A stretch of 64,000 nt of DNA from Acidovorax sp. Root219. GTDB taxonomy: Bacteria > Pseudomonadota > Gammaproteobacteria > Burkholderiales > Burkholderiaceae_C. Position numbers and translations under genes: made by a program. How positions within the stretch are numbered: position 1 is the first letter of the stretch; every line of letters starts with the position of its first letter. The notes below the pieces were generated by a model. That model was not told the origin of the DNA. It did no database searches and saw nothing but the letters and a program-made list of their open reading frames with translations. The stretch lies in assembly GCF_001428665.1 (NCBI RefSeq), contig NZ_LMIJ01000010.1:349731-413730 (forward strand). Direction: 5' to 3'. This document shows, piece by piece, positions 1,381 to 26,021 of the stretch.

Positions 1381-1399
1381 GGCTGGTGGCAGGCCCGCC

Positions 1400-3158: not shown

Positions 3159-3214
3159 GCTACCCTCCCGTCCCCGTCTTTGCCCTGCCGCGCACACCCA
3201 AGGACCCTGCCCCC

Positions 3215-6366: not shown

Positions 6367-6371
6367 GACGC

Positions 6372-6421
6372 CGCCTGCCATTGCAGGCGTGTACGCAATC
6401 CCCCGGGACACAGGGGATTGC
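6372..6421 (+). terminator. Two consecutive hairpins after the DUF3455 gene
   Basis: First hairpin: CGCCTGC / GCAGGCG (6372-6389). Second: GCAATCCCC / GGGGATTGC (6395-6421). Neither is followed by a T-run, so termination may be weak or factor-dependent. They separate the lipoprotein gene from the sigma factor gene. Confidence 0.45.
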
Positions 6422-6504
6422 GCGTGGATTCAGCAGCTTCTCGGCTACGATGCATCCACGCTCTGGGCCCGCGCGCTGCGCGGTGCCCAGCCACCGAACC
6501 GACC

Positions 6505-7841: not shown

Positions 7842-7868
7842 GCGCTGCTGCCGGCGAAGCGAGCAGAC

Positions 7869-8312: not shown

Positions 8313-8417
8313 GTTGGCTCCTTTGGGTTTGGACGTTGGAACAGGGGGCAAAAATTCAGGGTGCAGATCTCCCCGGCCACCCATGCAGGCGACCCGGCGG
8401 GGTGGTCTCTGGCGAGG

Positions 8418-10152: not shown

Positions 10153-10199
10153 GTCAAATCTCCGTGCTTCACAAATCCACCAGCCGCGAAACGGGCAGG

Positions 10200-10335
10200 G
10201 CCGAAGCCAGCGCCCCCGTGCAAGGGCCGCCACCCCGCGTAGGCGGCGCTTCGCTGGCGTGCGCTGGGGGCGTCCCCCTCCCGCACTGCGCAGCAATGCG
10301 AGAGAGGGGTGAAGGCGCGAAGCGACTCAGGGGGT
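10200..10335. repeat. Comamonadaceae-type dispersed intergenic repeat
   Basis: GC-rich spacer between the binding-protein and permease genes. It contains the blocks GCGCTGGGGGCGTCCCC, GCGCAGCAATGCGAGAG and GGCGCGAAGCGACTCAGGGG. I recognise these as recurring between genes in Acidovorax-like genomes. No open reading frame or hairpin with a T-run is seen. Boundaries are approximate and only one copy lies in this window. Confidence 0.5.
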
Positions 10336-10343
10336 GCTTCATT

Positions 10344-11747
10344 TCATGTCACCTTGCGGATCGGGAAACTTTTCGCGTACTCGGCGGCCTTGGCGGCATC
10401 GAACTCGCGGCCCATGATCTTGAACTTGGGGTAGGCGCCCTCGGGCACCTTCTGGTCCAGCGCTTTCATCTGCTTCTTGGCGTCGGTGATCAGGAAGACC
10501 TTCTCGGCGATCTGCTTGTAGTCCACGTCGCCCTTGACATAGCCCCAGCGCTGCATCTGCGTGAGCATCCACACGGCCATGCTCTGCCAGGGCATGGGGT
10601 CGAAGTCGGCGCGGTCGGGCACGTTCTGGATCTTGCCCAGGCCGTCGGCGAACTTGCCGGTGAGCACCTGGTTGATCACGGCTTCGGGCTGGTTCAGGTA
10701 GGCCTGGGGCGCGATCACCTTGGCGATGAGCTCGCGGTTGGCCGGGTCGCGCGCCATGGCGGCCGAGGTGAGCACGGCGCGGTACAGCGCGGCGAAGGTG
10801 TTGGGGTTCTTCTGGATGAACTCGGTGCTGGTGCCGAAGGCGCAGCAGGGGTGGCCGTTCCACAGGTCCTTGGTGAGCAGGTGGATGAAGCCCACTTCCT
10901 CGAACACGGCACGCTGGTTGAACGGGTCGGGGCCCAGGAAGCCGTCGATATTGCCGGCGCGCAGGTTGGCCACCATCTCGGCCGGCGGGACCACGCGCAG
11001 CTGCACGTCGGTGTCGGGGTTCAGCCCTGCCTCGGCCAGGTAGTAGCGCAGCAGGAAGTTGTGCATGCTGTACTCGAAGGGGATCGCGAACTTGAATCCC
11101 TTCCAGTTCTTCGGGTCGCGGTTGTCCTTGTGCTTCAGGGCCAGCGTGATGGCCTGGCCGTTCACGTTCTGGATGGTGGCCACATTCATCGGCGTGGCGT
11201 TGGAGCCGAGGCCCATCGAGATCGCCAGCGGCATGGGCGACAGGAAGTGCGTGGCGTCGTACTCCTTGTTGATCATCTTGTCGCGGATCAGCGCCCAGCC
11301 GGCCGTCTTGGTGACCTCCACGGTCAGGCCCTGCTTGCTGTAGAAGCCCAGCGGGTGGGCCATGATCAGCGGTGTGGCGCAGGTGATCGGAATGAAGCCG
11401 ATCTTGAGATTGGTCTTCTCCAGCGCGCCTTTCTCCTGTGCCATGGCCTGCATGCTGGCCACTGGCAGCACACTGGCAATGGCCGCCATGGCCGTCCCCT
11501 TGCCCACCGCCTTGATGAAGCGCCGGCGCACCGCGTCCTGCGGGAACAGCGCCTTGACCAGGGTGGCTTCGATGAATTCGTTGCTGTAGGCCTCGAACTC
11601 GCTGGTGAGGCTGCGCTGGCGCAGGGTGGCGGCGGCAGCGTCGGCCGACACCTCGGCATGGTGGTCTGCGGCCGTATGGTCGCGGCCGCAGCTGCACTTG
11701 AGCATCAACGGGCGGTCGGCATCGAAAGGCGAGAAGAATTCGGACAT
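10344..11747 (-). CDS. Substrate-binding protein of nitrate/cyanate ABC transporter (NrtA/CmpA family), Tat signal
   Basis: 467 residues. The C-terminal about 365 residues are the periplasmic NrtA/CmpA-type domain. A twin-arginine signal (RRRFIKAVGKG, from about residue 74) precedes the hydrophobic segment and an AMA cleavage site. Before the Tat signal there is an unusually long, about 73-residue cytoplasmic-side extension with CSCGRDH (C18, C20, H24) and more histidines, which could bind metal. The ATG at 11747 is preceded by GAGGTG, supporting this start over the upstream one. It is the first transporter gene behind the response regulator. Confidence 0.92.
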   Translation of the reverse strand: MSEFFSPFDADRPLMLKCSCGRDHTAADHHAEVSADAAAATLRQRSLTSEFEAYSNEFIEATLVKALFPQDAVRRRFIKAVGKGTAMAAIASVLPVASMQAMAQEKGALEKTNLKIGFIPITCATPLIMAHPLGFYSKQGLTVEVTKTAGWALIRDKMINKEYDATHFLSPMPLAISMGLGSNATPMNVATIQNVNGQAITLALKHKDNRDPKNWKGFKFAIPFEYSMHNFLLRYYLAEAGLNPDTDVQLRVVPPAEMVANLRAGNIDGFLGPDPFNQRAVFEEVGFIHLLTKDLWNGHPCCAFGTSTEFIQKNPNTFAALYRAVLTSAAMARDPANRELIAKVIAPQAYLNQPEAVINQVLTGKFADGLGKIQNVPDRADFDPMPWQSMAVWMLTQMQRWGYVKGDVDYKQIAEKVFLITDAKKQMKALDQKVPEGAYPKFKIMGREFDAAKAAEYAKSFPIRKVT

Positions 11748-11843
11748 GGCACACCTCGGAGAAGTTGATGCCATGCACTACGCAAAGCGCGGGCCAGTTG
11801 CACCCTCACCCGCCCCGCCGCCATGAATTCGTGGGGGCGATGT

Positions 11844-11886
11844 CTACAGCATGTAGGGGCAGCACTACAAATCCGGGCGGTAGTGC
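11844..11886. promoter_or_regulatory. Inverted repeats, candidate response-regulator site
   Basis: Between the response regulator gene and the binding-protein gene lie CTACA-GCA-TGTAG (11844-11856) and GCACTAC / GTAGTGC (11862-11886). Paired TAC-rich heptamers are typical of NarL-family targets, and the adjacent regulator is of that family. Assignment is inference. Confidence 0.45.
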
Positions 11887-11893
11887 CCGGAAA

Positions 11894-12580
11894 TCACTCC
11901 GCCGGCGTGCCGCGTGCCAGCAGCGCCAGCTCCACGTCGTTGCGCGCGCCGGTTTTTTCGAGGATGCGCGCGCGGTAGGTACTCACCGTATTGGGCGCAA
12001 GCTTGAGCTGCGCACCAATTTCGCCCACGCTCTGCCCCGCCGTGAGCAATCGGAACACCTGGTGCTCCCGGTACGATAGCGCGTCCACCCCGGCTGGCAT
12101 GCCCTGCTGGGTCACCCGCACCACCCCGGTGCGCTCTACCGCGCCCGCCAGCGCCTGGGCCGTGGCCTCCGTGAGGTAGCGGCCACCGGCAGCCACCTTG
12201 CGCACGGCAGCCACCATGTCGTCGGGGTCGGCGCTCTTGTGCAGGTAGCCGGCCGCGCCCATCTGGATGCAGCGCACCGCGTACTGCCGCTCGGGGTAGG
12301 TGCTGAGCATCAGCACCGGCAGCACCGGCCAGGCCTTGCGCAGGGCCTGCAGCACCTCCAGGCCATCCATGCCCGGCATGGCGATATCGAGCAGCACCAG
12401 GTCGATGCCGGCCGGACCGGAGAGCGCCGCCACCTGGTCGAGCACCTCCTGACCATGGGTGGCCTCGCCTGCCACCACGATGTCGGGCAGGCCGTTGGCC
12501 GGGTCGCCCAGCACCTGTTTGAGGCCCTCGCGCACGATGCGGTGGTCGTCGCCAATGAGCACGCGCACCGGAGCGCTCAT
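11894..12580 (-). CDS. Response regulator, NarL/FixJ family
   Basis: 228 residues. Receiver domain (1-120): acidic pair in LIGDDH, phospho-accepting Asp in LVLLDIAMPGMDG, Thr/Ser in MLSTYPE and Lys in LHKSADP. A LuxR-type helix-turn-helix closes the protein (SYREHQVFRLLTAGQSVGEI...NTVSTYRARI). Its start codon overlaps the kinase stop (ATGA), so the two form a two-component pair. The transporter and cyanase genes behind it in the same direction are the probable targets (inference). Confidence 0.93.
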   Translation of the reverse strand: MSAPVRVLIGDDHRIVREGLKQVLGDPANGLPDIVVAGEATHGQEVLDQVAALSGPAGIDLVLLDIAMPGMDGLEVLQALRKAWPVLPVLMLSTYPERQYAVRCIQMGAAGYLHKSADPDDMVAAVRKVAAGGRYLTEATAQALAGAVERTGVVRVTQQGMPAGVDALSYREHQVFRLLTAGQSVGEIGAQLKLAPNTVSTYRARILEKTGARNDVELALLARGTPAE

Positions 12581-13788
12581 GGCGCAGCCTCCAGCGGGAT
12601 GCGCAACTTCAGGCACGAGCCATCGCCGGGCTCGCTGCTGATGTGCAGGTGGCCACCCAGTTGCCGCGCACGCTCGCGCATGCCCATGACGCCATAGGCC
12701 GTGGGCGCCTCAAGCGCCTGGCGGGTGGCGCCCACCCCGTTGTCCTGCACACGCAACTGCAAGTGATCGTCCTCGATGTCGATGTGGATGCGAATAGCGC
12801 TGGCCTGTGCATGCCGCCCGACGTTGCTCAGCATCTCCTGGAAGATGCGGAACACCGCGATGGCGGCTGGCTCGGGCAGGTGCAGCGCCTCGGTCACCTC
12901 CATCTGCCAGTGGAGCTGCAATTCTGCCGACTGCACGAACTCCTGCGCCTGCCACTCCAGCGCCGCCCACAGGCCCTGGTGGTCCAGGATGCTCGGGCGC
13001 AGGTCGGTGATGATGCGGCCCACATTGTCCACCGCATTCTCGATCAGGCGGCTCATGTTCTGGCACTTGCAGCGCATCTGCTGGCGCATGTCTATGGCCG
13101 CCTCGGGGGCGCGCTCGCCCTGCTCGCCCAGGCGCTTGTGCAGCCAGTTGACGTCCATCTTCAAAGCCACGAGCAGGCTGCCCAGCTCGTCGTGCACCTC
13201 GCGCGCGATGCGCGTGCGCTCGTCCTCGCGCACCTGCTCGGAATACGCCGAGAGTTCGCGCAACTGGCCCAGCGCCTGTGAAAGCTCCTGTGTGCGCGCG
13301 GCCACCCGGCGCTCCAGTTCGTCGTTGGCGCGGGCCAGTTCGTCGTGCGCGCGCTGCAGTTCGCCGGCCGCGCGCCGGCGCTCGGTGATGTCCACGAAGG
13401 TGACCACCGCGCCCTGCACCTGGCCGGCCTCGACGATGGGGTGGCTCGAATACTCCACGGCAAAGGCCGTGCCGTCCGCGCGCCAGAAGACCTCGCTGTC
13501 CACTCGGCAAGGCAGGCCCGAGCGGAAGGCATTGAAGATCGGGCAGTCGCTGTCGGCATAGGGGCTGCCGTCGGGGTGGGAGTGGTGGGTCAGCGCATGC
13601 ATGTTGCGCCCCATCACCTCCCCGGTGGCCAGCCCCAGCATGCGCGCGCCGGCCCGGTTGATGAAGACGCAATCGCCCGCCAGATCGATGCCGAACACGC
13701 CCTCGCCCGTGGATTCGAGCAACAGGCCCAGCCGCTCGCGCCAGAGGGCGGAGGCGTTGGGGGGCAGGTGCAGTGCGCTGGCGGACAT
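12577..13788 (-). CDS. Cytosolic PAS sensor histidine kinase (HisKA_3, NarX/DegS type)
   Basis: 403 residues, no transmembrane helices. A PAS domain (about 18-135) contains His, Cys and acidic residues in HHSHPDGSPYADSDCPI. A coiled-coil linker follows, then a HisKA_3 dimerisation domain with the phospho-accepting His in IAREVHDELG. The HATPase domain has an N-box (EMLSNVGRHAQA), DNGVGA and a terminal YGVMGMRERA / GDGSCLKL block. Start at 13788 gives an intact PAS domain; the open frame further upstream runs over the divergent permease gene and is not used. A cytosolic PAS kinase suggests an internal signal. Confidence 0.9.
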   Translation of the reverse strand: MSASALHLPPNASALWRERLGLLLESTGEGVFGIDLAGDCVFINRAGARMLGLATGEVMGRNMHALTHHSHPDGSPYADSDCPIFNAFRSGLPCRVDSEVFWRADGTAFAVEYSSHPIVEAGQVQGAVVTFVDITERRRAAGELQRAHDELARANDELERRVAARTQELSQALGQLRELSAYSEQVREDERTRIAREVHDELGSLLVALKMDVNWLHKRLGEQGERAPEAAIDMRQQMRCKCQNMSRLIENAVDNVGRIITDLRPSILDHQGLWAALEWQAQEFVQSAELQLHWQMEVTEALHLPEPAAIAVFRIFQEMLSNVGRHAQASAIRIHIDIEDDHLQLRVQDNGVGATRQALEAPTAYGVMGMRERARQLGGHLHISSEPGDGSCLKLRIPLEAAP

Positions 13789-13842
13789 GCGCCAGGGCGC
13801 AAGCAATGGCCATGCCCGGGCAAGCCGCAGCACAATAGGGCC

Positions 13843-14688
13843 ATGCAAACCGCTCCCCCTTCGCTCCAGGCGCCGCCACCCACCCCGTCCGTATGGATGC
13901 CGCCTTCGCTGTCCTCGCGCTGGTGGCCCGTGTTCCTGCGCAACCTGCTGGTCTGGCGCAAGCTGGCCATCCCCAGCCTGGTGGGCAACATCGCCGAACC
14001 GCTGATGTGGCTGGTGGCCTTCGGCTACGGCATGGGCGCGCTGGTGGGCCAGGTGAACGTGGCCGCAGAGGGTGGCATGACCAAGGTGCCCTACATCCTG
14101 TTCCTGGCCAGCGGATCGATCTGCATGAGCGCCATGAATGCGGCGAGTTTCGAGGCGTTGTACTCGGCCTTCTCGCGCATGCACGTGCAAAAGACCTGGG
14201 ACGGCATCATGAACGCGCCCGTGCGCCTGGACGACGTGGTGCTGGCCGAGATGCTCTGGGCCGCCTTCAAAGCCCTGTTCACCGTGACGGCCATCCTCGG
14301 GGTGATGCTGGCATTGGGCATCAGCCACAGCCCCAAGCTGCTCGTGGCCTGGCCCGTGCTGCTGGGCGTGGGCATCATGTTCTCGAGCATCGCGCTGATC
14401 TTCAACGCGCTGGCCAAGGGCTACGACTTCTTCACCTACTATTTCACACTGGTGCTCACGCCGATGATGTTCCTGTCGGGCGTGTTCTTCCCGCGCGAGC
14501 AGTTGCCGCCCATCGTGCGCGCCATCTCCGACTGGTTGCCGCTGACGAACGCCGTCGAGCTGGTGCGCCCACTGTTCATGGACCAGTGGCCCGCCCACCC
14601 CTGGCGCCATGGCCTGGTGCTGGTGGTGACCACGGTGGCGGCCTTCTGGGTGGCATTGGCGCTGACGCGGCGGCGCTTTCGCAGCTAA
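13843..14688 (+). CDS. ABC-2 type permease, NodJ-like, without adjacent ATPase
   Basis: 281 residues with about six membrane helices, ABC-2 permease family. Recognisable stretches include LLVWRKLAIPSLVGNIAEPLMWL and, near the C-terminus, MMFLSGVFFPREQLPPIVRAISDWLPLTNAVELVRP. NodJ-type permeases export polysaccharide or lipo-oligosaccharide-like molecules with a NodI-type ATPase, usually encoded directly upstream. Here the upstream neighbour is the divergent histidine kinase (54-base gap), and no ATPase gene follows. The partner must lie elsewhere. Confidence 0.87.
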   Translation: MQTAPPSLQAPPPTPSVWMPPSLSSRWWPVFLRNLLVWRKLAIPSLVGNIAEPLMWLVAFGYGMGALVGQVNVAAEGGMTKVPYILFLASGSICMSAMNAASFEALYSAFSRMHVQKTWDGIMNAPVRLDDVVLAEMLWAAFKALFTVTAILGVMLALGISHSPKLLVAWPVLLGVGIMFSSIALIFNALAKGYDFFTYYFTLVLTPMMFLSGVFFPREQLPPIVRAISDWLPLTNAVELVRPLFMDQWPAHPWRHGLVLVVTTVAAFWVALALTRRRFRS

Positions 14689-14707
14689 ACCCAGGGCGGT
14701 GGACCAC

Positions 14708-15040
14708 TCAGACTTTGGCCAGTCCTTCGTCCAGGGTATGGGTCACAGCGAACAGGGTCAGGAAGCCGCTCATGTCAAACACCTCGCGCACCATGTCGCT
14801 CAGGCCGACCAGCACCAGCTTGCCCTTGCTGGCACGCAGCTTCTTGCCCGCGAGCAGCACCACGCGCAGGCCGGCGGAACTGATGTAGTCCAGAGCAGAG
14901 AGGTCAAACACCACTCGCTGCGTGCCCGCTTCGAGCTGCTCGGCGACCACGCGCTCGAGTTCGGGCGAGCTGTTGCTGTCGAGGCGGCCGCGTGGGCGCA
15001 GGATCAAGATGTCGTCGCGGCGCTCCTGTTCGAGGTTCAT
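14708..15040 (-). CDS. STAS-domain anti-anti-sigma factor (SpoIIAA/RsbV-like)
   Basis: 110 residues, single STAS domain. The conserved loop reads DLSALDYISSAGLRVVLL; the phospho-accepting serine should be S54 or S55. In partner switching, the kinase phosphorylates this protein and the PP2C phosphatase removes the phosphate; only the unphosphorylated form binds the kinase. Both other parts occur nearby (phosphatase at 19696-21780, kinase at 24624-25070). It is the last gene of the minus-strand series and may have its own promoter in the 95-base gap before it. Confidence 0.92.
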   Translation of the reverse strand: MNLEQERRDDILILRPRGRLDSNSSPELERVVAEQLEAGTQRVVFDLSALDYISSAGLRVVLLAGKKLRASKGKLVLVGLSDMVREVFDMSGFLTLFAVTHTLDEGLAKV

Positions 15041-15135
15041 GGGCGCAATCCTTGGAATCGTGGCTGTAGAAAAGGAGTCCTGGAACTCCGGTTCGGCCCA
15101 TTGTAGGGGCCGCACCGCAGTTCGCGGCCGGCGCT

Positions 15136-16203
15136 TCAGTTGGCGGCGGCCTGCTTGGGCACGTTGATCACTTCGGCCACGTTCAGCAGCAGCATGGGCG
15201 GATACAGGTCCAGCGCCTGCACCGTGCGCATGTTGACCAGCAGCGAGAAGCGCTGAAGGGTAGAGGCCGCGATGGCCTGGGGCGGTTTTTTCTCGACCAG
15301 GATCTGGCGCGCCATGGAGCCGGCATAGCGGCCGATGTTGGCGCCATTGGAGAACAGCCCGAACAGGCAGCCTGACTGGCGCACGATGCTTTCGGTTGCG
15401 CAGAAGGTCGGCAGCTTGTTCTGGAGCGCGGCGGTGGTGACGGCATCCCGGTGCGTGAAGGCCAGGAAGGTGATGGGGCCGACATAGAGGAAGTCGACCT
15501 TGCGCTCGGCCAGGGTCTGGATCTGCGGGGCGATCTGCGTGGGGTCGGGTCCGCCTTGTGGCAGCAGGGGCAGGCTGGCCTCGACCACCTCGAAATTCTG
15601 CGTGCGCGCCAGCTCCTTGAGCCGGTCGCGGATCAGGCCGGAGTTGGGCTCGGCCGGGTTGTGCAGGTAGCCCAGGCGCGTGAAAGGGCGGTAGGCACGG
15701 ATGGCGTTGAGTTGCACCGGCAGCGGTGCCACGTGGCTCACGCCCGTGACGTTGCGGCCGTGGCCCTCCAGCGTGCGCAGCAGACCGGCGCCCACCGGGT
15801 CGGTCACTTCGGTGAAGACGATGGGCAGGTCGCGAATCGCATCGTCCTTGCCTGCCTGGTCATCCCGGCCCGCCAGGGCGAGGGTGGTGGGTGTGCCCCA
15901 GGCATAGATCAGGTCCGGGCGTGCCGCGCGCACCTTGGCGCGCAGCTCGGGAATGTCCTCACTGCGGCCCGAGAAGCGGATGCTCACGTACTGCACGGGC
16001 ACGTCCTGGCGCTGCAGGTAGCCGGTGAAGCCCGCCTCGATGTTCTGGTCGTCGCGCGGTAGCACCATGGCGATGGTGAAGCGCTTGGTGGCGGCCGCCA
16101 CGCCAGAGGCCGCCGCGTTGGCGGCGCTCTGGGCCATGGCAGCCGAGCTGCCCAGCAGGGCGCAGGCGGCCCCGGCGGCGATGAGGATGCGGCGCAGGTT
16201 CAT
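15136..16203 (-). CDS. Periplasmic binding protein, ABC_sub_bind family, without transporter genes
   Basis: 355 residues with a Sec signal peptide (cleavage after AMA, about residue 24), then a two-lobed periplasmic binding fold of the ABC_sub_bind (PF04392) type: FTIAMVLPRDDQNIEAGF, LIYAWGTPTTLALAG, IVFTEVTDPVGAGLL, GLFSNGANIGRYAG. No ABC permease or ATPase is adjacent. It lies 20 bases behind the sensor-MFS gene, so it may present a ligand to the neighbouring membrane sensors rather than to a transporter (inference). Confidence 0.88.
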   Translation of the reverse strand: MNLRRILIAAGAACALLGSSAAMAQSAANAAASGVAAATKRFTIAMVLPRDDQNIEAGFTGYLQRQDVPVQYVSIRFSGRSEDIPELRAKVRAARPDLIYAWGTPTTLALAGRDDQAGKDDAIRDLPIVFTEVTDPVGAGLLRTLEGHGRNVTGVSHVAPLPVQLNAIRAYRPFTRLGYLHNPAEPNSGLIRDRLKELARTQNFEVVEASLPLLPQGGPDPTQIAPQIQTLAERKVDFLYVGPITFLAFTHRDAVTTAALQNKLPTFCATESIVRQSGCLFGLFSNGANIGRYAGSMARQILVEKKPPQAIAASTLQRFSLLVNMRTVQALDLYPPMLLLNVAEVINVPKQAAAN

Positions 16204-16223
16204 CGTAATTCTCCAGAGGGTCA

Positions 16224-18842
16224 TCAGGCCGCCGCAGCGGCCTGGGTGCGGGGGTTGCGCAGGCCGGCGGCCAGGCTCAAGGTCGACACCGACAGCAGCA
16301 GGCCCACGGCCACCACTGCGCCGGCATAGCCGAAGGCGGTCACGGCGACCGCCGTGACAAAGGGCGCAACGATGCTGCCGCCACGCTCGATCAGCCGGAA
16401 CGCGGCCAGCGCCTGCTCGGGTGTGGCGCTCGCGCGGCTCGCATCCACGCCCTCGAAGGCCTCGGTCGTCAGCGCGATCTGCGGTGACGACTGCATCGCC
16501 TGGCCAAAGCCCAGCAGGGCGCAGCAGGCGGCCATGCCCCAGACGCCGCCCAGGGCCGGCAGCGACAGGCAGGCCAGCACGCTGAGCACGCCGCCCGCCA
16601 CGATGAAGGGCTTGCGCTGCCCGAGCAGGTCCGACCAGTGCGCCGCCAGCGAGGCGGTGAGCGCAAAGCACAGGAAGTACAGCAGCAGCACCCGGCCCGC
16701 GACCGCAGGCGGCTGCTGCAGCTCGTTCATGTACAGGGGCACCACCACCGAGAGAATGGTCACGGCCACCAGGCGGCCCGGCAGGGCCGCACCCAGGATC
16801 ACCCAGATGGCGCGTGGCTCGCGCAGCACCGCCATGTAGCCGCGCCAGCCGCCGGAGGTGGCTAGGCCGCGCTGGGCTGCGGCGCTGCCCTCGGGCACCG
16901 GCAGCGACAGGCGCAGGGCGGCCAGCAGGGCGCCGACCATGCACAGCGCGCAGGCCAGGAAACCGATGCCGTCGCCAGCGCGGGCGGCGATCATGCCGCC
17001 GAAGGGCGGGCCGACGATGCCTGCCGCCACAATGGCCGCAGCCACTTCGGCCAGACCTCGCGCGCGCTGTTGCGGCGGCGTGATGCGCACGATGGCCGTC
17101 TGCACCAGGATCAGCGCCAGGCCGTAGGCCGCACCACCCAGGGCGCGCAGGCCGATCAGGGTCCACGCGTCGGTCGCCCAGGCGGTGGCGGTCAGCGCGA
17201 GGGTGCCGACCAGGGCCGCCAGCATCAGGCTCCAGCGCAGGTCGAAGCGCCGCGCCAGTGCCGGGCCGGCGGGCTGGGCCAGGGCCAGCGTGGCCATGAA
17301 GGCGGCGACGGGCAATCCGGCCACCATGGTGGGCGACAGGGCGGCATCAATGGGCCGCACCTCGCTGGCGAACACGGTAAAGAAGGGGCGCAGCAGCTCT
17401 TCGGACAGGGCCACCAGGAACACGGTCAGGCGCAGCAAGGTGAGCTGGGCGCCGACCTGGGGCGTTTCGGCCGTGGCGCTGCCACTGCGCGCAGCGCGAA
17501 TCAGCTGTGCCCGGCATTCGGCGGCGTCGCGCTCATGGGCCTGGGCGCTTTCCTGGTCGATGGTGTGGTTTTTTTGCCAGCGCCGCTGCAGCCCTTGCCA
17601 CAACCGGGCCTGCACATAGGCGGCCAGCGGGAACAGCAGCGAGCGGCGCCACAGGCCGCGCGCGAGTTCGCGCACCAGCACGGCGGCGATCACCAGGGCC
17701 AGCACCAGGTCGATCAACATGCCCGCGAGCTGGCGGTCCACGAAGTCGGCCGGGTAGCCGACGACCACAGCGCCATCGCCGGCCGTGAGCTTGCGCCGCG
17801 GGAAGTCGGACGCATCTTCGCGTGCCTGCGCAGGCGCGTCGCCGCTCCAGGTGGCATTTTGCGCCGGGCCGCTGGGGGGCTGCAGTGCCAGGTAGTTCAG
17901 CTCGGGCGCTTCGACAAGCTGCTGCCGAAACAGTTCGTCCACCCCATTCATCGCGCTCCAGGGCACGCCGAGCGACAGCGCGCGCGCGACCTGGCCCGAC
18001 AGCGCGCGGCCCACAGCGTCGGCGTTTTCCTGGATCTGCGCCGTGACGGCAGGACGTGCTGCCTCGCGCGCGATCCACAGCATCGCGGCGGGCGCCACCA
18101 CCGCGCTGAAGACCACGGCCAGCCAGAGTTGTTTGGCGGAGCCCTGGATGGCCCGTGCGCCGACGCCACTGCCGATGCCGCGCATGGAGGTGATGACGCG
18201 GCTGCTCCAGCGCAGCAGCAGCCACCAGGTGATCAACAGGGCCAGCAGCATCAGCGGCAGGGCGCGCAGCACCATGTCCAGCGCGACGCCCCGCGCCTGG
18301 GCGCGCACCTCGGCCAGGTCGAGCGCCCCCCACAGGGTGGCCGCTGGGACGCCGGTGGAATCGAAAATGGCCGCGCCAACCCACGCATAGCGGCCCGTGT
18401 TGCGTACCGCCGGGGCATGGCCCGGCCCGGCGTCGATCACCGCCTGCCTCCAGCGCGGCGCGATGGTGGCATGCAGCTCAGGGTCGCCCGAGCGCAAAAC
18501 GGCCTCGCCCCTATCGGTGTCGATGAACACCCCGCGCAGCGGGCTGCCCGCTGCGCCCAGGCGCGCGACCCGCTCGGACAGCACGGTCTGGTCGGCCACG
18601 GAAACGCCGAAGCGCAGCCCGGACTCGGTCTCGTCGGCCACCTGGCGCAGCAGGCGCACGGTACGGTCCTGCGTGAGCTGGGTCAGCAACTGCTCGGTCC
18701 GCCAGGCGATCAGCACCAGGGACAGGCCAAACAGCACCAGCGCAAAGATCGCAGCGAATACCAGGGATTCGCGCCGCAGGCGTCGCTGCAGTGCGGCCAC
18801 ATCGATTTCGGTGCCGGGCGTGGGGTTGGTCGTGTCGGTCAT
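16224..18842 (-). CDS. Membrane protein: two tandem extracytoplasmic sensor segments fused to an MFS transporter
   Basis: 872 residues, about twice a normal MFS protein. The first half holds two units of helix - extracytoplasmic segment - helix: helices near 27-47 and 190-210 flank the first, and helices near 240-257 and 375-392 flank the second. After a cytoplasmic linker with an acidic/basic helix (about 415-450), a 12-helix MFS domain follows (465-872), including GLRALGGAAYGLALILVQTAIV. The second sensor unit aligns without gaps to the one in the gene at 21770-23737. The MFS domain may transport or act as a membrane sensor output; its substrate is unknown. Confidence 0.82.
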   Translation of the reverse strand: MTDTTNPTPGTEIDVAALQRRLRRESLVFAAIFALVLFGLSLVLIAWRTEQLLTQLTQDRTVRLLRQVADETESGLRFGVSVADQTVLSERVARLGAAGSPLRGVFIDTDRGEAVLRSGDPELHATIAPRWRQAVIDAGPGHAPAVRNTGRYAWVGAAIFDSTGVPAATLWGALDLAEVRAQARGVALDMVLRALPLMLLALLITWWLLLRWSSRVITSMRGIGSGVGARAIQGSAKQLWLAVVFSAVVAPAAMLWIAREAARPAVTAQIQENADAVGRALSGQVARALSLGVPWSAMNGVDELFRQQLVEAPELNYLALQPPSGPAQNATWSGDAPAQAREDASDFPRRKLTAGDGAVVVGYPADFVDRQLAGMLIDLVLALVIAAVLVRELARGLWRRSLLFPLAAYVQARLWQGLQRRWQKNHTIDQESAQAHERDAAECRAQLIRAARSGSATAETPQVGAQLTLLRLTVFLVALSEELLRPFFTVFASEVRPIDAALSPTMVAGLPVAAFMATLALAQPAGPALARRFDLRWSLMLAALVGTLALTATAWATDAWTLIGLRALGGAAYGLALILVQTAIVRITPPQQRARGLAEVAAAIVAAGIVGPPFGGMIAARAGDGIGFLACALCMVGALLAALRLSLPVPEGSAAAQRGLATSGGWRGYMAVLREPRAIWVILGAALPGRLVAVTILSVVVPLYMNELQQPPAVAGRVLLLYFLCFALTASLAAHWSDLLGQRKPFIVAGGVLSVLACLSLPALGGVWGMAACCALLGFGQAMQSSPQIALTTEAFEGVDASRASATPEQALAAFRLIERGGSIVAPFVTAVAVTAFGYAGAVVAVGLLLSVSTLSLAAGLRNPRTQAAAAA

Positions 18843-18880
18843 GGAAGTGCTTCCTTGGTATGCCGGTTTCGTCGAATGTC

Positions 18881-19717
18881 ATGGAGCTGTTCTATAGTCG
18901 GGGCGTCGTTACGAACCCTTTCAACCCTTTCGACCCGTTGCGCGCTGTTTGCGCCACCCCGTCCACCGTGCTCAGCTCCCTGTCCCCCATACCGCGCGTC
19001 CTGCTGCCTGAAGTGGGACTGGGCCAACTGCCCCAGGCGCACACCCGCTTGTTGGAGTCGCAAGATTTCGAGGCGTGGGTGGCCTTGCGCAACACCGTGC
19101 TGGCCACGCTGCCCGACCCTGACCTCTATGTGCGCGAGGACCACGAGGAGAACTTCTTCCAGGCCCACCTGTCTCCGAGCGGCGAAGTCATCGGGGTGTT
19201 TGTGGACGACGCCCTGATCGCCTACGCCATGATCGAACTGCCGGGCGAACAGGAGGCCCATAACCTGGGCCACGTGATCGGCCTGGAGCCGGCACAGCAG
19301 GGCATGGTGGCGCATCTGTCGAGCTGCATGGTGCTGCCGCAGTGGCGTGGTCGCCAGTTGCAGCGCACGCTGCTGTCGGCGCGCCTGGGCCTGGCACAGG
19401 CCTGCGGACGTCCCTTGTGCATGGCCCTGGTCTCCCTGCTCAACCACCGCAGCCGCCACAACATGCTGCGCCAGGGCCTGCGTGTCGTCTGGACCGGCAT
19501 GATCGACGGCCTGCACCGCCACGTGGCCATGATCGATCTTGAGCAGGGCATGGACTTTGCGGCCGAGGGGGAGTTGCTGCTGCCCAGCCTGGACTACGAG
19601 GCCCTGCGCGCGGCGGCGCTGGCCGGCTACGCCTGCGTGGGCGAGGTGCGCACACCCGACGGTGCGGTGTCGTTGCGCTACGCGCGCCATCTCGGTCACA
19701 ACCGCCGCCCCCGGTAG
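18881..19717 (+). CDS. GNAT-family acetyltransferase
   Basis: 278 residues if the ATG at 18881 is used. A GNAT fold is suggested by LLESQDFEAWVALRNTVLATLPDPDLY, IGVFVDDALIAYAMIELPG and the acetyl-CoA loop SSCMVLPQWRGRQLQRTLL. The substrate is unknown. The start is uncertain: TATAGT at 18892 resembles a -10 element, and an in-frame GTG at 18968 would start just before the conserved part. It diverges from the sensor-MFS gene (38 bases) and its 3' end overlaps the phosphatase gene end-to-end by 22 bases. Confidence 0.75.
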   Translation: MELFYSRGVVTNPFNPFDPLRAVCATPSTVLSSLSPIPRVLLPEVGLGQLPQAHTRLLESQDFEAWVALRNTVLATLPDPDLYVREDHEENFFQAHLSPSGEVIGVFVDDALIAYAMIELPGEQEAHNLGHVIGLEPAQQGMVAHLSSCMVLPQWRGRQLQRTLLSARLGLAQACGRPLCMALVSLLNHRSRHNMLRQGLRVVWTGMIDGLHRHVAMIDLEQGMDFAAEGELLLPSLDYEALRAAALAGYACVGEVRTPDGAVSLRYARHLGHNRRPR

Positions 19718-21780
19718 GTCATTGCCACCACCGTGATGTCGTCGGCTTGCGCGGCGCCGTTCTCGAAGCCGCGCACGGCACTCACGAGCTGCTCGGGAAT
19801 GCGCGCCGTGACCACCTCTCGGGGGTCGCTGACAATGGCTTTCATGGCCGCAAGCAGGGCGGCGTCCCCAAAAAGCGCATTGTCCGCATTGGTCGCTTCG
19901 GTCACGCCGTCGGTATAGAGCACGACGGTTTCGCCGGGGGCCAGCGTGACCTCGCCCTCGGTGTATTCCTGCTCTTCCATCACGGCCAGCGCCATGTTCC
20001 TGCCGCGCGGGAACAGCGCGGCGCTGGTGCCGGTCAGGCGCACCGGCGGGTTGTGGCCCGCATTCACGTAAACCAGCCGCCCGGTAGGCAAGTGCAGCAC
20101 GCCGTAGAACACGGTGACGAACATCATCTGGTCGTTCTCGGCGCACAGCTGGTCGTTGAGGGCCCGGATGGTGGCACCGGGTTCGCGCAGGAACAGTGCG
20201 TTGCTCTTGAGCAGGGTGCGCGAGATCGCCATGAAGAATGCGGCCGGCACGCCCTTGCCCGATACGTCGGCCACGACCACGGCCAGGTGCTCGTCGTCGA
20301 TCGGGAAATAGTCGTAGAAGTCGCCCCCTACTTCCTTGGCCGGGATCATGGTGGCCGCGATGTCGACCTCCCCCACGTCGGGCGCCGAGCGCGGCAGGAT
20401 GGACAGCTGCATCTGGCGGGCGATCTCCAGCTCCTGTTGCAGGCTGGCCAGGGTGGCCTGGGTCACCACCGCCGCCTGCAGCTCGCGCAGCAGCTTGAGC
20501 AGGCGGCTTTGCTGGTTGGTGACCAGCCCGGACATGCGGCCCAGGATCCCCGCGAGTTCGGCCAAATGGTTGGTCGGCGCGGCGCTGGCGTCGGCCGGGG
20601 CGTGGCTGACCGGCGTTTCGGCGCTCGAACCGAGCGCCGCGAGGATCTCCTCGCGCGAGGCCAGGTCCAGGCTGTCGGCCAGGGTGCGCAGTTGGTCGCG
20701 GATCAGGCGTTCCTGTTGCTGGCGGGTGCGGATGCGCTCCTGGCGCAGGGTTTCGAGGTTCAGCAGTTCCGAGCGGATGGCCACCACGCCGCGCGCGATC
20801 TCTCCGGACTCGTCCTCGGCGTCTTCCTCGCCCTGGTCCAGCGAGGCATCGGTGGCGCCGCGCGCCAGCGCGTTGAGCACGCCGACCGAGCGCGCCAGCG
20901 GCTCCATCGCGTGGCGCAGGTAGACCACGAGGCCTGCCGCCAGCATCGCGGCGAAGGCCAGCGCCGCCGCCAGCGCGGTGCGCGAGAACAGCTGGTCGGC
21001 GTAGTGCCTGTCGCTCACGTCCTGCATCCAGACCAGAGCGCCAACGATGCGCGCATCGGGGTTGCGCACGGGCTGGCTGACGATGCGCAGGGCGCGTGGT
21101 TCACGGTTGTGGTCTTCCAGCTGCACGGTGACGGCCTGGTTGGAGCGCACGGGGATCGGCGTTTCGGTGGCAGCCAGCACGCCCGCGCGGGTGCCCACGG
21201 ATTCCGCGCCGCGCATGTTGGCCAGGAAGATGTCACCTCCCAGGTAGGTGGCCAGCTCGGACAGCTTGGGGGCGACGTCCTGGCCTACGGCCAGCGCGCC
21301 GCCGTCGAAGCCGCGCACCACCACCCACTGGTACTGGCGCACCGCCACCTGGCTGAGCCCGCGCACGGCGCCGCTCTGACCACTGGCCGTGGCCACCCAA
21401 CGGACTTCGGCCATCGCCTGCGGATCGATCCCGGGCTCGGTGGTGGCCACCAGCGTGCCCTGGCGGTCGAAGACATCGATGCGCAAGCCCGGTGCGCGCC
21501 GAGTCGCGGCCGCCAGCAGCGCGTCGATGCGGGCCCCGGCACCGTGCGCTGCAAGGTCGCGGATAGCCGCATCCTCCAGCAGCTGCTGGGCCAGCACGTC
21601 CTGGCGGTCAAGGTTTTCGTTCTGCAGCTTGTCCCAGGCGATGCGCTGGTTCTGCAGCAGCACTTCGTCGTAACGCTGCGACCAGCGCTGGTCGCTGAGC
21701 CAGCCCATCGTGGCGAAGGCTGCGACCAACAGGGCCATGGCGGCCAGCAGGATGGCGATAAGCCGGTGCTTAAGGTGCAT
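19696..21780 (-). CDS. Membrane-bound PP2C (SpoIIE/RsbU-type) serine phosphatase
   Basis: 694 residues. Helix near 7-27, an extracytoplasmic sensor segment to about 270, a second helix near 275-295, a HAMP-like stretch, a coiled coil, and a SpoIIE-type PP2C domain from about 470. The phosphatase has the metal-binding acidic residues in EVGGDFYDYF, VVADVSGKGVPAAFFMA and ADDITVV, plus YVNAGHNPP and VLYTDGVTEA. It should dephosphorylate the STAS protein in response to an external signal. Its start overlaps the end of the upstream membrane gene by 11 bases. Confidence 0.93.
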   Translation of the reverse strand: MHLKHRLIAILLAAMALLVAAFATMGWLSDQRWSQRYDEVLLQNQRIAWDKLQNENLDRQDVLAQQLLEDAAIRDLAAHGAGARIDALLAAATRRAPGLRIDVFDRQGTLVATTEPGIDPQAMAEVRWVATASGQSGAVRGLSQVAVRQYQWVVVRGFDGGALAVGQDVAPKLSELATYLGGDIFLANMRGAESVGTRAGVLAATETPIPVRSNQAVTVQLEDHNREPRALRIVSQPVRNPDARIVGALVWMQDVSDRHYADQLFSRTALAAALAFAAMLAAGLVVYLRHAMEPLARSVGVLNALARGATDASLDQGEEDAEDESGEIARGVVAIRSELLNLETLRQERIRTRQQQERLIRDQLRTLADSLDLASREEILAALGSSAETPVSHAPADASAAPTNHLAELAGILGRMSGLVTNQQSRLLKLLRELQAAVVTQATLASLQQELEIARQMQLSILPRSAPDVGEVDIAATMIPAKEVGGDFYDYFPIDDEHLAVVVADVSGKGVPAAFFMAISRTLLKSNALFLREPGATIRALNDQLCAENDQMMFVTVFYGVLHLPTGRLVYVNAGHNPPVRLTGTSAALFPRGRNMALAVMEEQEYTEGEVTLAPGETVVLYTDGVTEATNADNALFGDAALLAAMKAIVSDPREVVTARIPEQLVSAVRGFENGAAQADDITVVAMTYRGRRL

Positions 21781-23737
21781 GGTGCCCCCCGGCGCGGACC
21801 GCACTCCCAGCGGCGCGCTGAGCGTGCCTGCTGCAAACCAGCAGCAGCAACGCGGCCGCTAGCAAGGGCCAGCCGCCGTGCAGGTGGGCGCCCAGAGCGC
21901 CACTGGCAACCACGGCGCCGAGGCCCATCGCGGCCCATTGGGCCGCCGACAGCTCGGGCAGCCGGCCCTGGCCCTCGGCTGTGCGCGCCAGCCGGCCCAG
22001 CGCGACGCCGGTCAGCAGGGCGGCCAGCACCAGCGCCGCATCCTGCAGATACCAGCCCGTGGGCAGCCAACCCGAGGCGATGGCCAAGGCCAGCAGGGTG
22101 GCTACGGCGGCCACGGCGGTCAGGATGCTCGGGGACGGCATGCGCCCGCGCAGGAACAGCCCGGCCGCCACGCCCAGCCCCAGCAGGGGTGCCCAAATGG
22201 GGGGCTGCCCCAGCGCATGTGCGGCCAGCGCCAGGCCCAGCAGCAAGCCGGCGGCACCGGACTGGCCCAATGCCCTGGTGCGGTCGGCCGCGGGCCGGGC
22301 CGCTGCGGGCAGGGCGTTGCCGTGCACCCCCGTGCGGCTGCGCCAGGGGCTGCGCGGTCCGTTCCAGCGCACCACAAAAAAGCCCGCGCACACGGCGGGC
22401 AGCAGCAACGCATAGGCTCCCTGCAGCATGCCCAAGGCGTCCAGCGCCAGGCTGCCCAGCGCCGGGCCCAGCCAGACGGCAGCGACGGTCCAGGCGCTCC
22501 AGGTCGCGGCGCGCCAGCGGGGTCGGGCGTGCGCGTATTCGGGCCGGGTGCGTGGCACGTGTTCGACGGCCTGGCAGGCGGCCAGCACGGCGCCCACCAC
22601 CAGGCCATGCCAGGCACCCGCCGCCATGGCGAAGGTCCAGGGCAGGCTCGCTGGCAGGCCGCTGGCGCAGGCCATGGCTGTGGCCAACAGGGCGATGCAG
22701 GCGGGCAGCACCACGGTGGGCGCTGGCCAGCGGCGCCAGCGTGTCACGGACCAGGCCGCCGTGCCCGCCACGAAGAAGGCGGCCAGGCTGGCGGCAGTGG
22801 CCGGTGCCAGGCCCTGCCACTGCCAGGGTGTTTCGCCTTGCAGGTGCAGGCTGCGCAGCCACAGGGTCTGCAGCGCCAGCGCGCTCAAGGCCACGAGCAG
22901 GGCGATCCAGAACGCCTGCGCTTCTGCTGCGACCACCCGCACCTGGGCAATACCGTGTTCGGCGAAGCGGTCATGGGCCTCGGCCTTGGCCAGCAACTGG
23001 TCCAGGCGTTCGCGCCGCGCGTGCTGGGGTTCGGTCTGGCGCAGCGAGGCGATGAGGCGGCGCACGCGCACCAGCCCTTCGTGCACCTCGCGCACCGCAT
23101 GGCCCAATTGCTGCACCCGCAGGTCGAACCCGCGCCGTTGCGGCAGCACCACGGTGTTGTCGTAGCGACCCTGGGCGATGGCGCGGCGCGCGCGCCAGGC
23201 GGCATGGTTGCGCAACTCGATGCCCTGGGCCTGCGAAAAGCGCGCGGCCAGATAGGCCAGCAGTGCCAGCACCCCGATGGCAGGCAGCAGCAGGGCGGCC
23301 GTGGCACGGGCGAAGGCGGCGGCACCGCTGTCGCGCAAAGCCAGGCGCAGGGTGGCCACGGAAGCGCCACGGACCTGCACAGGCGCCTCGGCCGTGGCAC
23401 CTGCCGCGGCTGCGTCGCGCGTGACCTCCCAGAGTACCTTGCCGTCGGGCAGCACCAGTGCCACGGCATGGATGTCGGGCTGCGACGCCATGCGCTGCTG
23501 GAACAGCGCCTCTACGCCCACCAGGCCGCGCAGCGGGATGCCGGATTCGACGGCGTGGCTGATGCGCACGCTCAGCGACTGGGCCATCAGCTGCGAACGC
23601 GTTCGGTCGCTTGCGGCCCGCAGGTCGCGCAACTGGTCATAGGTGTAGATGGACAGGACGCAGGCAGCCAGCAGCAGCAGCACCAAGGCCGCGATGCCCA
23701 GGCGGGTCGCGGGGTCGAAAGCGCGGCGCGCGGTCAT
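21770..23737 (-). CDS. Polytopic membrane protein with N-terminal extracytoplasmic sensor segment
   Basis: 655 residues. A helix (about 15-32), an extracytoplasmic segment (33-140) and a second helix (145-165) are followed by a cytoplasmic linker (166-260) and about 12 hydrophobic helices. Residues 44-99 align gap-free with residues 270-325 of the sensor-MFS protein; about 15 of 56 are identical by hand count, including SGIP, GVEALF and PDG-like positions. The C-terminal helices are MFS-like in number, but no MFS signature is clear. Its ATG overlaps the previous stop (ATGA) and its end overlaps the phosphatase start. Confidence 0.78.
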   Translation of the reverse strand: MTARRAFDPATRLGIAALVLLLLAACVLSIYTYDQLRDLRAASDRTRSQLMAQSLSVRISHAVESGIPLRGLVGVEALFQQRMASQPDIHAVALVLPDGKVLWEVTRDAAAAGATAEAPVQVRGASVATLRLALRDSGAAAFARATAALLLPAIGVLALLAYLAARFSQAQGIELRNHAAWRARRAIAQGRYDNTVVLPQRRGFDLRVQQLGHAVREVHEGLVRVRRLIASLRQTEPQHARRERLDQLLAKAEAHDRFAEHGIAQVRVVAAEAQAFWIALLVALSALALQTLWLRSLHLQGETPWQWQGLAPATAASLAAFFVAGTAAWSVTRWRRWPAPTVVLPACIALLATAMACASGLPASLPWTFAMAAGAWHGLVVGAVLAACQAVEHVPRTRPEYAHARPRWRAATWSAWTVAAVWLGPALGSLALDALGMLQGAYALLLPAVCAGFFVVRWNGPRSPWRSRTGVHGNALPAAARPAADRTRALGQSGAAGLLLGLALAAHALGQPPIWAPLLGLGVAAGLFLRGRMPSPSILTAVAAVATLLALAIASGWLPTGWYLQDAALVLAALLTGVALGRLARTAEGQGRLPELSAAQWAAMGLGAVVASGALGAHLHGGWPLLAAALLLLVCSRHAQRAAGSAVRAGGHHAP

Positions 23738-24540
23738 TCGGAGCGCTCGCTTTCGTCCAGGCGCACCAGGCATTCGTCCATGCGCTGGCGAACCTGGGCA
23801 CTGCGCCCCAGTGCCCGCGTCTGCGAGCGCTGGCATTCGATGCGCAACCGGGCCGACTGCGGTTGCAGGGCCCAGAGCGTGGCCAGCCAGCCCAGCAGGC
23901 CGGCGATGGCCAGCACCAGCACCGCCATGGCGCCCAGCGTGAGGGTTTGTCCATCAGGCTGCCACACCGCGAGCCGAAAGCGCACGGGCTGGGTCGCATA
24001 CGTGGCGCTGATGTGGCCCACAACCTCGCCGAAGGCGTTGTGCAGGGGAAGGCCCATGATGGCCTCTCCCGGGAGCGCTGCGCTCCAGATCCGGTCCTGG
24101 CGCGCGCCGGCCTCGGCCGCGCGTGCCGCACGGGGCTGCAGCGCCTCGCCGATGGCGCCCCGGTCGGTGCTGAAGAGGGCGATGCCCACGCGGTCCACCA
24201 CATCGATGGCGTAAAGCTGGGTGTCACTGGCCAAGGCACGCTCCAGCCGGGGCTGGATGCCGCGGTGGTCGGGCAGATCAAAGCCCAGCCCGAGGTCGCC
24301 CTCGATGGCCTCCTGCAGTTCCACCAGCGTCAGCGACAGGCGCGAGCGCTCTATCTGCGCTTCTTCTTGCGCGCGCACGTCCAGCAGCAGGCTGGTGATC
24401 AGTGCGATGCCGGCCAGCACGATGAGCAGCCACAGTCCGGCGAGTTCCCACAGCGCAGCGAGTGTGGGCCTTGCCGCGACGGCGGTGCTGGCGACCTGGG
24501 GTGCTGAGGGCGACGAAAGCGTTTGCATGGTCCGGCTCAT
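23734..24540 (-). CDS. Two-helix membrane sensor protein
   Basis: 268 residues (264 if the ATG at 24528 is used). Helix near 34-53, extracytoplasmic segment to about 198, second helix near 203-225, and a short cytoplasmic tail. The segment AIDVVDRVGIALFSTDRG is typical of Cache/PDC-type ligand-binding folds. No output domain is present, so it may work with the polytopic protein encoded next, to which it is coupled by an ATGA overlap. Together the two genes mirror the domain order of the sensor-MFS fusion at 16224-18842. Confidence 0.75.
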   Translation of the reverse strand: MSRTMQTLSSPSAPQVASTAVAARPTLAALWELAGLWLLIVLAGIALITSLLLDVRAQEEAQIERSRLSLTLVELQEAIEGDLGLGFDLPDHRGIQPRLERALASDTQLYAIDVVDRVGIALFSTDRGAIGEALQPRAARAAEAGARQDRIWSAALPGEAIMGLPLHNAFGEVVGHISATYATQPVRFRLAVWQPDGQTLTLGAMAVLVLAIAGLLGWLATLWALQPQSARLRIECQRSQTRALGRSAQVRQRMDECLVRLDESERSE

Positions 24541-24623: not shown

Positions 24624-25070
24624 ATGAATCCACCGCTCGAATGGCAGCAGACCCTGCACGGCACCGTTGCCGAGCTTCCCTTTTTCTTCGAGCGGCTGGA
24701 GGCCTGGGCGGATGACAATGGGGTGCCGATGCCCCTGGCTTCGTCCTTTGGACTGATGCTCGACGAATTGCTGACCAATGTGGCCATGCATGGCTATGCG
24801 GGACAGGGCGGCCTGGTGGAGGTGCATGTGCGCTTTGATGCGCCGGCCCGGCTGCAGGCCGTGTTGCGCGACCATGGGCGGGCATTCGATCCCACCACCT
24901 TGGCGGCGCCCGACGTGGGGGCCTCGCTCGATGATCGGGACATAGGTGGCCTGGGCGTGCATTTCGTGCAGAGGTTGGCAGATCGTTTCGAGTATCGGCG
25001 CGACGGTGAGGTCAACGAGATCACGGTATCGCGTTGCCTGCCGGCCGCTGGGGCGGCGCAGTCACGGTAG
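24624..25070 (+). CDS. RsbW-like serine kinase / anti-sigma-type HATPase
   Basis: 148 residues, single HATPase_c_2 domain: N-box LMLDELLTNVAMHGY (Asn at about 52), DHGRAFDP and GGLGVHFV for ATP binding. Such proteins phosphorylate a STAS antagonist and bind a sigma factor or other target. No sigma factor gene of the usual SigB/SigF type adjoins it; the gene behind it is a diguanylate cyclase. It diverges from the sensor gene with an 83-base gap, probably holding both promoters. Confidence 0.9.
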   Translation: MNPPLEWQQTLHGTVAELPFFFERLEAWADDNGVPMPLASSFGLMLDELLTNVAMHGYAGQGGLVEVHVRFDAPARLQAVLRDHGRAFDPTTLAAPDVGASLDDRDIGGLGVHFVQRLADRFEYRRDGEVNEITVSRCLPAAGAAQSR

Positions 25071-25265
25071 GGCCTGCTGACAGGCCCTAGATTGTTAACA
25101 AGTGTACGAGCGTATCATCGTGTCCGTCGCGGGGCTGTCGTTTGTGCGCCTCGCTTTGCGCTTTTTGTAACACCCAAACATGCCGTTGTTGCTGTGATTT
25201 TTTGCGCTGGCACGCGCCTGCAGCAGCCACGCACATGCTGCCTGCCGCCACGAGGAGAACACCCT

Positions 25266-26021
25266 GTGACCCCTGCCGAGACCGACGACGCCTTCCTGCA
25301 ACGCCTGTGCGACATCATGCAGCGCATCGCCCAGCAGGGGGACCTGCGCGCCATCGGGCCGCTCATGGACATGACCGGCGAGCGCCCCGAGGAAAGCGTT
25401 CAGGCCCGACTGACCGAGGCCTTCGCCCATATGGTGGTCAAGCTGGAGGCGCGCGAGTTCGAACTTGAATGCCGCATCTCCGACCTGGACGAGACCCGCC
25501 GCGAGTTGGAGGCCGCCAATCTGGACCCGCTGACCGGCCTGCCCAACCGCATGATTGCGCGCGACCGGCTGCGCCAGGCGCTGACCGATGCCAACACGCG
25601 CCAGGGGCTGCTCACGGTGCTGTTCCTTGACCTGGACAAGTTCAAGCATGTCAACGACACCATGGGCCATGCAGCGGGCGACGAACTGCTGTGCCTGGTG
25701 ACGCAGCGCCTGCGCGGCTGCCTGCGCGAAGGCGACACCCTGGCACGCCTGGGCGGCGACGAGTTCCTGTGCGTCTTGCCCGGCGCCAGCGCCGAAGACG
25801 CACAGAGCGTGGCAAACCGCATGGTGGCGGCGCTGACCGACCGCTTTCAGCTCGCCGTCGGCGGCGCGGACATCGGCACCAGCATCGGCCTGTCGCATTT
25901 CCCTGACCACGGGCGCGGCGTGGATGAGCTGATCGCCCACGCCGACGCCGGCCTGTACGAGGCCAAGCGCAACGGCCGCAACCGCTGGTGCTACGCGCCG
26001 ACCGAAGCCGCAGCGGACTGA
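25266..26021 (+). CDS. Diguanylate cyclase (GGDEF)
   Basis: 251 residues. An N-terminal helical region (1-85) with a coiled coil is followed by a GGDEF domain: DPLTGLPNR, LDLDKFKHVND, and an intact GGDEF at 163-167. The product-inhibition site RxxD (REGD, 154-157) is present five residues upstream. It should make cyclic di-GMP and be feedback-inhibited. The GTG start is supported by AGGAG upstream. The short N-terminal helices carry no recognised sensor, so activity may be set by a protein partner, possibly the STAS or kinase proteins (inference). Confidence 0.93.
   Translation: MTPAETDDAFLQRLCDIMQRIAQQGDLRAIGPLMDMTGERPEESVQARLTEAFAHMVVKLEAREFELECRISDLDETRRELEAANLDPLTGLPNRMIARDRLRQALTDANTRQGLLTVLFLDLDKFKHVNDTMGHAAGDELLCLVTQRLRGCLREGDTLARLGGDEFLCVLPGASAEDAQSVANRMVAALTDRFQLAVGGADIGTSIGLSHFPDHGRGVDELIAHADAGLYEAKRNGRNRWCYAPTEAAAD

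Follow-up and report, generated by a model that had tools for sequence, protein, structure and literature searches.

The SiaABCD system of Pseudomonas aeruginosa is composed of the PP2C-type phosphatase SiaA (predicted to span the membrane twice and bearing a HAMP domain), the kinase SiaB, the phospho-target SiaC, which resembles anti-sigma-factor antagonists, and the diguanylate cyclase SiaD (PMC7647112), while solute-binding proteins were described as serving receptors as well as ABC, TRAP and TTT transporters (PMC9602780). Here we analyzed a stretch of 64,000 nucleotides of Acidovorax sp. Root219 (positions 349,731 to 413,730 of contig NZ_LMIJ01000010.1, hereafter the window; host genome of 6.82 Mb), which contains a sensor-sensor-transporter fusion gene and, a short distance away, a pair of genes of the same design. 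We favor, at slightly better than even chances, the reading that this region encodes one membrane receptor module in two paralogous copies, which feed a SpoIIE/STAS/RsbW partner switch. The close relatives of the fusion and of the larger protein of the pair whose source is named are labelled Acidovorax.

The three open reading frames (ORFs) on which the original prediction was built are present, all on the minus strand: a fusion protein of 872 residues (16224..18842), a sensor protein of 268 residues (23734..24540) and a polytopic protein of 655 residues (21770..23737), the stop of the second overlapping the start of the third by four bases (23734-23737). In the fusion, unit 1 (residues 15-222; 18177..18800) and unit 2 (residues 230-398; 17649..18155), delimited by secondary structure and by profile matches to the 268-residue protein and to the sensor of the 655-residue protein, respectively, each consist of a transmembrane (TM) helix, an alpha/beta sensor segment and a further TM helix, and are followed by a domain of the major facilitator superfamily (MFS; residues 460-865; 16248..17465). 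The 268-residue protein is a unit-1-type sensor (TM helix, cache-like segment, TM helix and cytoplasmic tail), and the 655-residue protein joins a unit-2-type sensor (residues 9-188; 23174..23713), assigned from its model and a profile match, to a twelve-helix, MFS-shaped tail (residues 262-636; 21830..22954).

The gap-free alignment proposed earlier between residues 270-325 of the fusion and 44-99 of the 655-residue protein was reproduced exactly, with 15 identities in 56 positions. As many identities were reached in one of 20,000 shuffles at the same register, and the BLOSUM62 score in none of 20,000; it is the best ungapped 56-residue pairing over all registers (score 83, the next being 37), and BLASTP recovers the segment unaided (35.4 bits, E 9e-6 as a single comparison). 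Pairwise BLASTP was unconvincing for the first units and for the 655-residue against the 268-residue protein, so that profiles were required. The likeness of the first units, formerly read from a shared L..GVF/IDV..D..G motif that alone is insufficient to carry the claim, stands profile against profile (probability 95.7, E 8.7e-9, reversed control 0.5) and not pairwise (BLASTP E 1.2; 6/38 identities in the register of the profile). With profiles cut to single units (hhalign), the 268-residue protein, which matches unit 1 at this probability of 95.7, reaches 58.7 with unit 2, and the sensor of the 655-residue protein matches unit 2 at 98.4 (E 4.5e-15) and unit 1 at 44.5; units 1 and 2 of the fusion match each other at 82.2, the two split sensors at 92.7, and the reversed controls of all unit-by-unit pairs stay at or below 2.7. 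Because this matrix is unit-specific and its reversed controls are low, the four sensor units look related and their order conserved, as had been suggested for one gene and two coupled genes. The cytoplasmic linkers of the two proteins gave no match in profile alignment (probability 0.2). The order of elements in predicted models of the sensor segments fits Cache, and sCache_3_2 matches the 268-residue protein at 17.4 bits (Pfam cut-off 28.4) and, in its 35-row alignment, finds weak matches in 27 sequences (at E of 1 or less, the best being 7.5e-05). A search of PDB sequences with the 268-residue family gave no match at E 0.1; the fold-search rows shown cover the MFS parts of the proteins.

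Homologues are numerous, with at least 70 for the fusion and at least 37 for the 655-residue protein, the window's own counted. The family profile of the 655-residue protein had matches in 11 of 299 genomes of the same family and, in six of those, was by itself enough to pick up the fusion's unit 2 as well (its match in genome G210 is a split unit 2-MFS gene), and a sensor-only profile of the fusion had matches in 27 of 399 genomes of the order and in 10 of 398 of the phylum, the weakest being doubtful. These genome counts include weak matches (E about 1e-4), for example the 499-residue ORFs of G342, G525, G554 and G663, which are not regarded as members. A scan of named genomes yielded 54 loci, including Rubrivivax, Sulfuritalea, Azospirillum, Chitinimonas, Andreprevotia, Massilia, Amorphus and Chelatococcus. 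From an input of 94 loci, 85 with a complete unit 2-MFS part were retained, and 76 after deduplication at 97% (which removed L085, L100, L113, L117, L121, L122, L128, L147 and L152); left out were L026 (no first-copy gene on the contig), L078 and L151 (MFS reading frame broken into several ORFs), L091, L098 and L099 (non-members) and L143, L146 and L153 (cut).

The expected duplication with fusion or fission is supported by the presence of both forms among the 76 loci, of which 52 are split, 23 fused and one cut off. A quick, unrooted tree of the unit 2-MFS part requires at least nine changes of state, seven of them forced by branches with SH-aLRT (Shimodaira-Hasegawa-like approximate likelihood ratio test) support of at least 95, and the relatives thus show a duplicated module in which fusion or splitting occurred many times. 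The fusion of the window forms, with six other fused forms and the split forms of G210 and G570, a supported group of nine, whose internal branching is open, and a fused (L096, G781) and a split locus (L094, G993) carry the same genus label. In G210 (L030), the split genes overlap as ATGA and a ribosome-binding site precedes the second, so that the split there is natural. Since the split state is the commoner and the wider one, we infer that it is the older state and that fusion is derived, the tree being unrooted.

The two MFS parts differ in the evidence behind them. Residues 460-865 of the fusion exceed the gathering score of Pfam MFS_1 and adopt a 12-helix MFS fold, which places them in the superfamily; among the 76 first copies, R566, G615 and R816 are invariant and E819 and R820 are kept in 75. 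An NCBIfam H+ antiporter model also matches, but its 36.7 bits fall far short of the 319.6 set as cut-off. For the 655-residue protein, the predicted fold shows twelve MFS-shaped helices, in an AlphaFold model built on a shallow alignment of 35 rows (mean predicted local distance difference test score, pLDDT, of 73). Its sequence has no Pfam MFS match (one of the 35 rows matches MFS_1, at E 0.35), and its tail does not match the MFS domain of the fusion significantly by profiles (probability 2.0) or MFS in any other setting (3.7 with pooled tails, 5.7 and 4.3). We therefore dropped sequence homology of this tail to MFS, with probabilities of 2.0-5.7, and kept the likeness as fold evidence only. 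The MFS-like domain claimed for the second protein is thus supported by the model and by relatives that occupy its place and have tails with a sequence match to MFS, and not by a sequence match of its own.

Such relatives come from second pairs, found in 25 of the 28 loci with a SpoIIE gene. The exceptions are L027, which has its other genes on a second contig of the same genome (L026), L090, and L097, where a pair with a real MFS, the only pair seen, directly precedes SpoIIE. Second-copy tails match MFS in L116 (probability 90), L129 (82), L093 (68) and, weakly, L131 (37), with reversed controls from 0.4 to 1.1. By a simple hydropathy rule for TM helices, the tails have two to six helices in Azospirillum (the one with two, L118, being cut), four in L020, three in L021 and none in L023, L028, L029 and L072, and in G210 (L030) and G640 (L083) the sensor of the second pair is fused to SpoIIE itself. 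The R-x-x-E-R set of TM helix 11 (R816, E819 and R820) has no aligned counterpart in all five second copies examined, falling in a gap in L093, L116 and L131 and beyond the end of the alignment in L129 and in the window copy; four of the five retain R566, the exception being the window copy, for which the alignment is non-significant. Fourteen second-copy sensor rows lie to one side of a single branch, whose support is 76/82, and 27 second-copy rows need three changes in a larger quick tree, the likelihood being higher for the tree that holds them together (approximately unbiased test, p-AU 0.565), which is compatible with one clade of second copies without establishing it. At the sequence level, the second pair linked to SpoIIE is a paralogue that in many lineages has a degenerate or shortened MFS part, or none, and the split pair of the window is such a second copy.

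In 69 of the 76 loci, a gene for a periplasmic solute-binding protein (ABC_sub_bind, PF04392) comes next downstream on the strand of the module; four loci have it at another place on that strand and two on the opposite one, and in one locus, at a contig end, it was not seen. By sequence, the core module consists of unit 1, unit 2-MFS and this solute-binding protein. In the window, the gene lies just downstream of the fusion (15136..16203, minus strand; PF04392 E 9.8e-27 on a slightly longer frame), its start, MNLRR, being picked for an upstream GGAGA. PDB relatives of the binding protein are 6hni, 3lkv and 3lft; its likeness to TrpX, below the NCBI cut-off, together with 6hni, gives a weak hint that aromatic amino acids may be the ligand.

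Within pieces of up to about 9 kb on each side of the locus, we identified four kinds of output: SpoIIE, in 28 loci (five of them also with type VI secretion system, T6SS, genes); a Ser/Thr kinase of dCache-HAMP type, in 12; a cyclase of that type, in three; and T6SS genes only, in eight. Kinases and cyclases were counted by catalytic-domain queries, which replaced queries sharing the dCache-HAMP part (17 and 18, respectively). Pfam scans of chosen neighbors agree with this tally, the remaining scanned neighbors being housekeeping or unrelated genes. Next to the trio of L075, L081 and L087 lies a divergently oriented Ser/Thr kinase gene that has dCache and HAMP parts of its own, and a GGDEF gene adjoins the module in L030. 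T6SS genes occur near 13 of the 76 loci, a raw count without a random-locus control; as they come from few lineages, with 7/13 in Azospirillum, the cases are not independent. A run of T6SS genes (ClpV-like, Hcp, VgrG and DUF6931) continues into the module in L135 (positions 1-17868) and in similar loci of Azospirillum, Hcp and VgrG adjoining it in A. oryzae L135 by Pfam scan, which suggests that the module may be a T6SS regulator in those loci. In the window's own genome, the one searched, the VipB sheath family (PF05943) had no matches, and a T6SS output is therefore unlikely there. Two neighborhoods hold further ORFs: a ribonucleotide reductase large subunit bearing a LAGLIDADG intein (L075, 13918-18660) and a single ORF with caspase-like and FGE-sulfatase domains, divergent from a fused sensor-MFS gene (L073, 10708-12603).

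The genes of the window form two minus-strand groups, one with the 268-residue sensor, the 655-residue protein and a membrane SpoIIE-type (PP2C) phosphatase (24540 to 19696), the other with the fusion, the PF04392 gene and a STAS gene (18842 to 14708). The phosphatase (19696..21780; SpoIIE E 8.6e-47) has its own periplasmic segment, and the STAS-domain anti-sigma-factor antagonist (14708..15040, start uncertain; STAS E 4.3e-22) also exceeds the cut-off of NCBIfam ant_ant_sig. Upstream of and divergent from the sensor operon, on the plus strand, are an RsbW-like HATPase_c_2 kinase/anti-sigma factor (24627..25070; E 1.5e-20) and, beside it, a GGDEF diguanylate cyclase (25092..26021; E 5.9e-47), whose start and membership of the module are uncertain. 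Between the two groups lies a plus-strand GNAT acetyltransferase (18881..19717, start uncertain; Acetyltransf_1 at 24 bits against 20.7), a relative of which occurs in 34 of the 76 loci. The phosphatase, STAS and HATPase_c_2 domains are all above the Pfam cut-offs and in one cluster, and by this composition the gene set is a predicted SpoIIE/STAS/RsbW partner switch. Farther away, the minus-strand genes at 8418-14610, an NMT1-type binding protein (10344-11774), an ABC ATPase (8418-9293), a PAS-histidine kinase (within 12577-14610) and a LuxR-type response regulator (11894-12616), look like an uptake and two-component set, and a dCache_3-HAMP-GGDEF-EAL protein (41495-43846) is a further cyclic di-GMP enzyme, for which no link to the module was seen.

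The likeliest reading of these genes is a ligand-sensing membrane complex of binding protein, cache-like heterodimer and MFS, followed by SpoIIE, STAS and the RsbW-like kinase. The binding protein would capture a periplasmic ligand and dock on the cache-like segments of the unit-1/unit-2 heterodimer. The MFS part of the first copy may move the ligand or read it out like a transceptor, and the second pair would sit against SpoIIE, passing the signal via its membrane and HAMP-like region; STAS would then be dephosphorylated and titrate the RsbW-like partner, releasing the target of the latter, possibly a sigma factor or the neighboring diguanylate cyclase. Gene fusions are classical hints of physical contact, and those between unit 1 and unit 2-MFS and between the second sensor and SpoIIE are taken as such. 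This arrangement suggests, and does not prove, a transporter-shaped signal receptor; the signaling role first attributed to the MFS-like domains is indicated by the gene neighborhood and the two natural sensor-SpoIIE fusions, the function itself being predicted. Tentatively, we further propose a so far undescribed class, a binding-protein-dependent MFS transceptor, in which an MFS would be joined in one complex by two cache-like units and a solute-binding protein, the transport or occupancy state of this complex driving Ser/Thr phospho-signaling; after duplication, the second MFS would have lost its transport core to become a pure receptor scaffold, giving a natural transporter-to-receptor series.

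Several observations weigh against a receptor module. None of the four outputs was seen, within the pieces, in 25 of the 76 loci; eight of these pieces are shorter than 12 kb and L088 and L101 carry a kinase domain with no dCache part seen, and the remaining 17 loci are longer pieces, several adjoining purine or hydrolase genes. SpoIIE occurs without a second pair in L090 and L097, and a second pair without SpoIIE seen in L118 and L144; 23 of the 27 second-copy tails (22 of 26 without that of the window) lack a significant MFS sequence match, and the cache assignment lies below the Pfam cut-off. The output-free loci, the binding-protein gene directly downstream, the nearly invariant charges of the first-copy MFS helices and the subthreshold antiporter match (36.7 bits) would also fit a trio that is primarily a binding-protein-dependent MFS transporter, with the ligand delivered via cache-like docking segments and the phospho-signaling genes merely regulating it or being regulated. 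We hold this to be rather unlikely, since cache-like segments are typical of receptors, 51 of the 76 loci carry a SpoIIE phosphatase, a dCache-HAMP kinase or cyclase, or T6SS genes, and the second copies keep their sensor units with an MFS core that is degenerate or gone.

The missing Pfam match of the window protein, the non-significant profiles and the shallow 35-row model (mean pLDDT 73) are, in turn, what would be expected if its 12-helix tail were a separate polytopic sensor, unrelated to MFS, that AlphaFold places in an MFS shape; set against the tails of relatives in the same position, this appears improbable. An origin of the fused and split forms by convergence, from common sensor and transmembrane elements put together independently, is very improbable and already disfavored: the pairwise similarity of unit 1 is weak, but the profile matches are unit-specific and in order with low reversed controls, fused and split forms are intermixed in one unit 2-MFS tree, and the same binding-protein gene adjoins both.

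Should the module work as proposed, MFS would become a further transporter type that solute-binding proteins serve, and an input would be at hand for partner switches and, in certain lineages, for type VI secretion clusters. A transporter-to-receptor series would exist in nature at the same operon place, from true MFS over degenerate 12-helix, 3-6-helix and helix-free forms to SpoIIE-fused ones, and how transporters turn into sensors would become testable with existing sequences.

UhpC is an MFS protein, and we know of no cache-like units or binding protein in the UhpC-UhpB system. It is the nearest membrane ligand sensor, as in both cases an integral membrane component would detect an extracellular ligand and activate a signaling partner, which in UhpC-UhpB is, unlike in the window, a histidine kinase (PMC4790336). 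A description of the module or of its combination of parts was not found in the accessible portions of the open-licence PMC literature. SiaABCD, the nearest in output, likewise has a partner switch driven from the membrane, but the available sections of its description name neither a solute-binding protein nor a separate pair of sensors nor an MFS part (PMC7647112), and the target and kinase of the window are, unlike SiaC and SiaB, ordinary STAS and HATPase_c_2 proteins. HsbR-HsbA shares a partner switch with an anti-sigma-factor antagonist tied to sigma factors, whereas HsbR is called a response regulator, with no membrane sensor pair or transporter fold mentioned in the available text (PMC6482189). 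As in the transporters and receptors that depend on solute-binding proteins, such a protein would serve a membrane transporter or receptor here; unlike the ABC, TRAP and TTT systems named in PMC9602780, in whose main text, as available, the term MFS has no occurrence, its neighbor in the window is an MFS with cache-like units.

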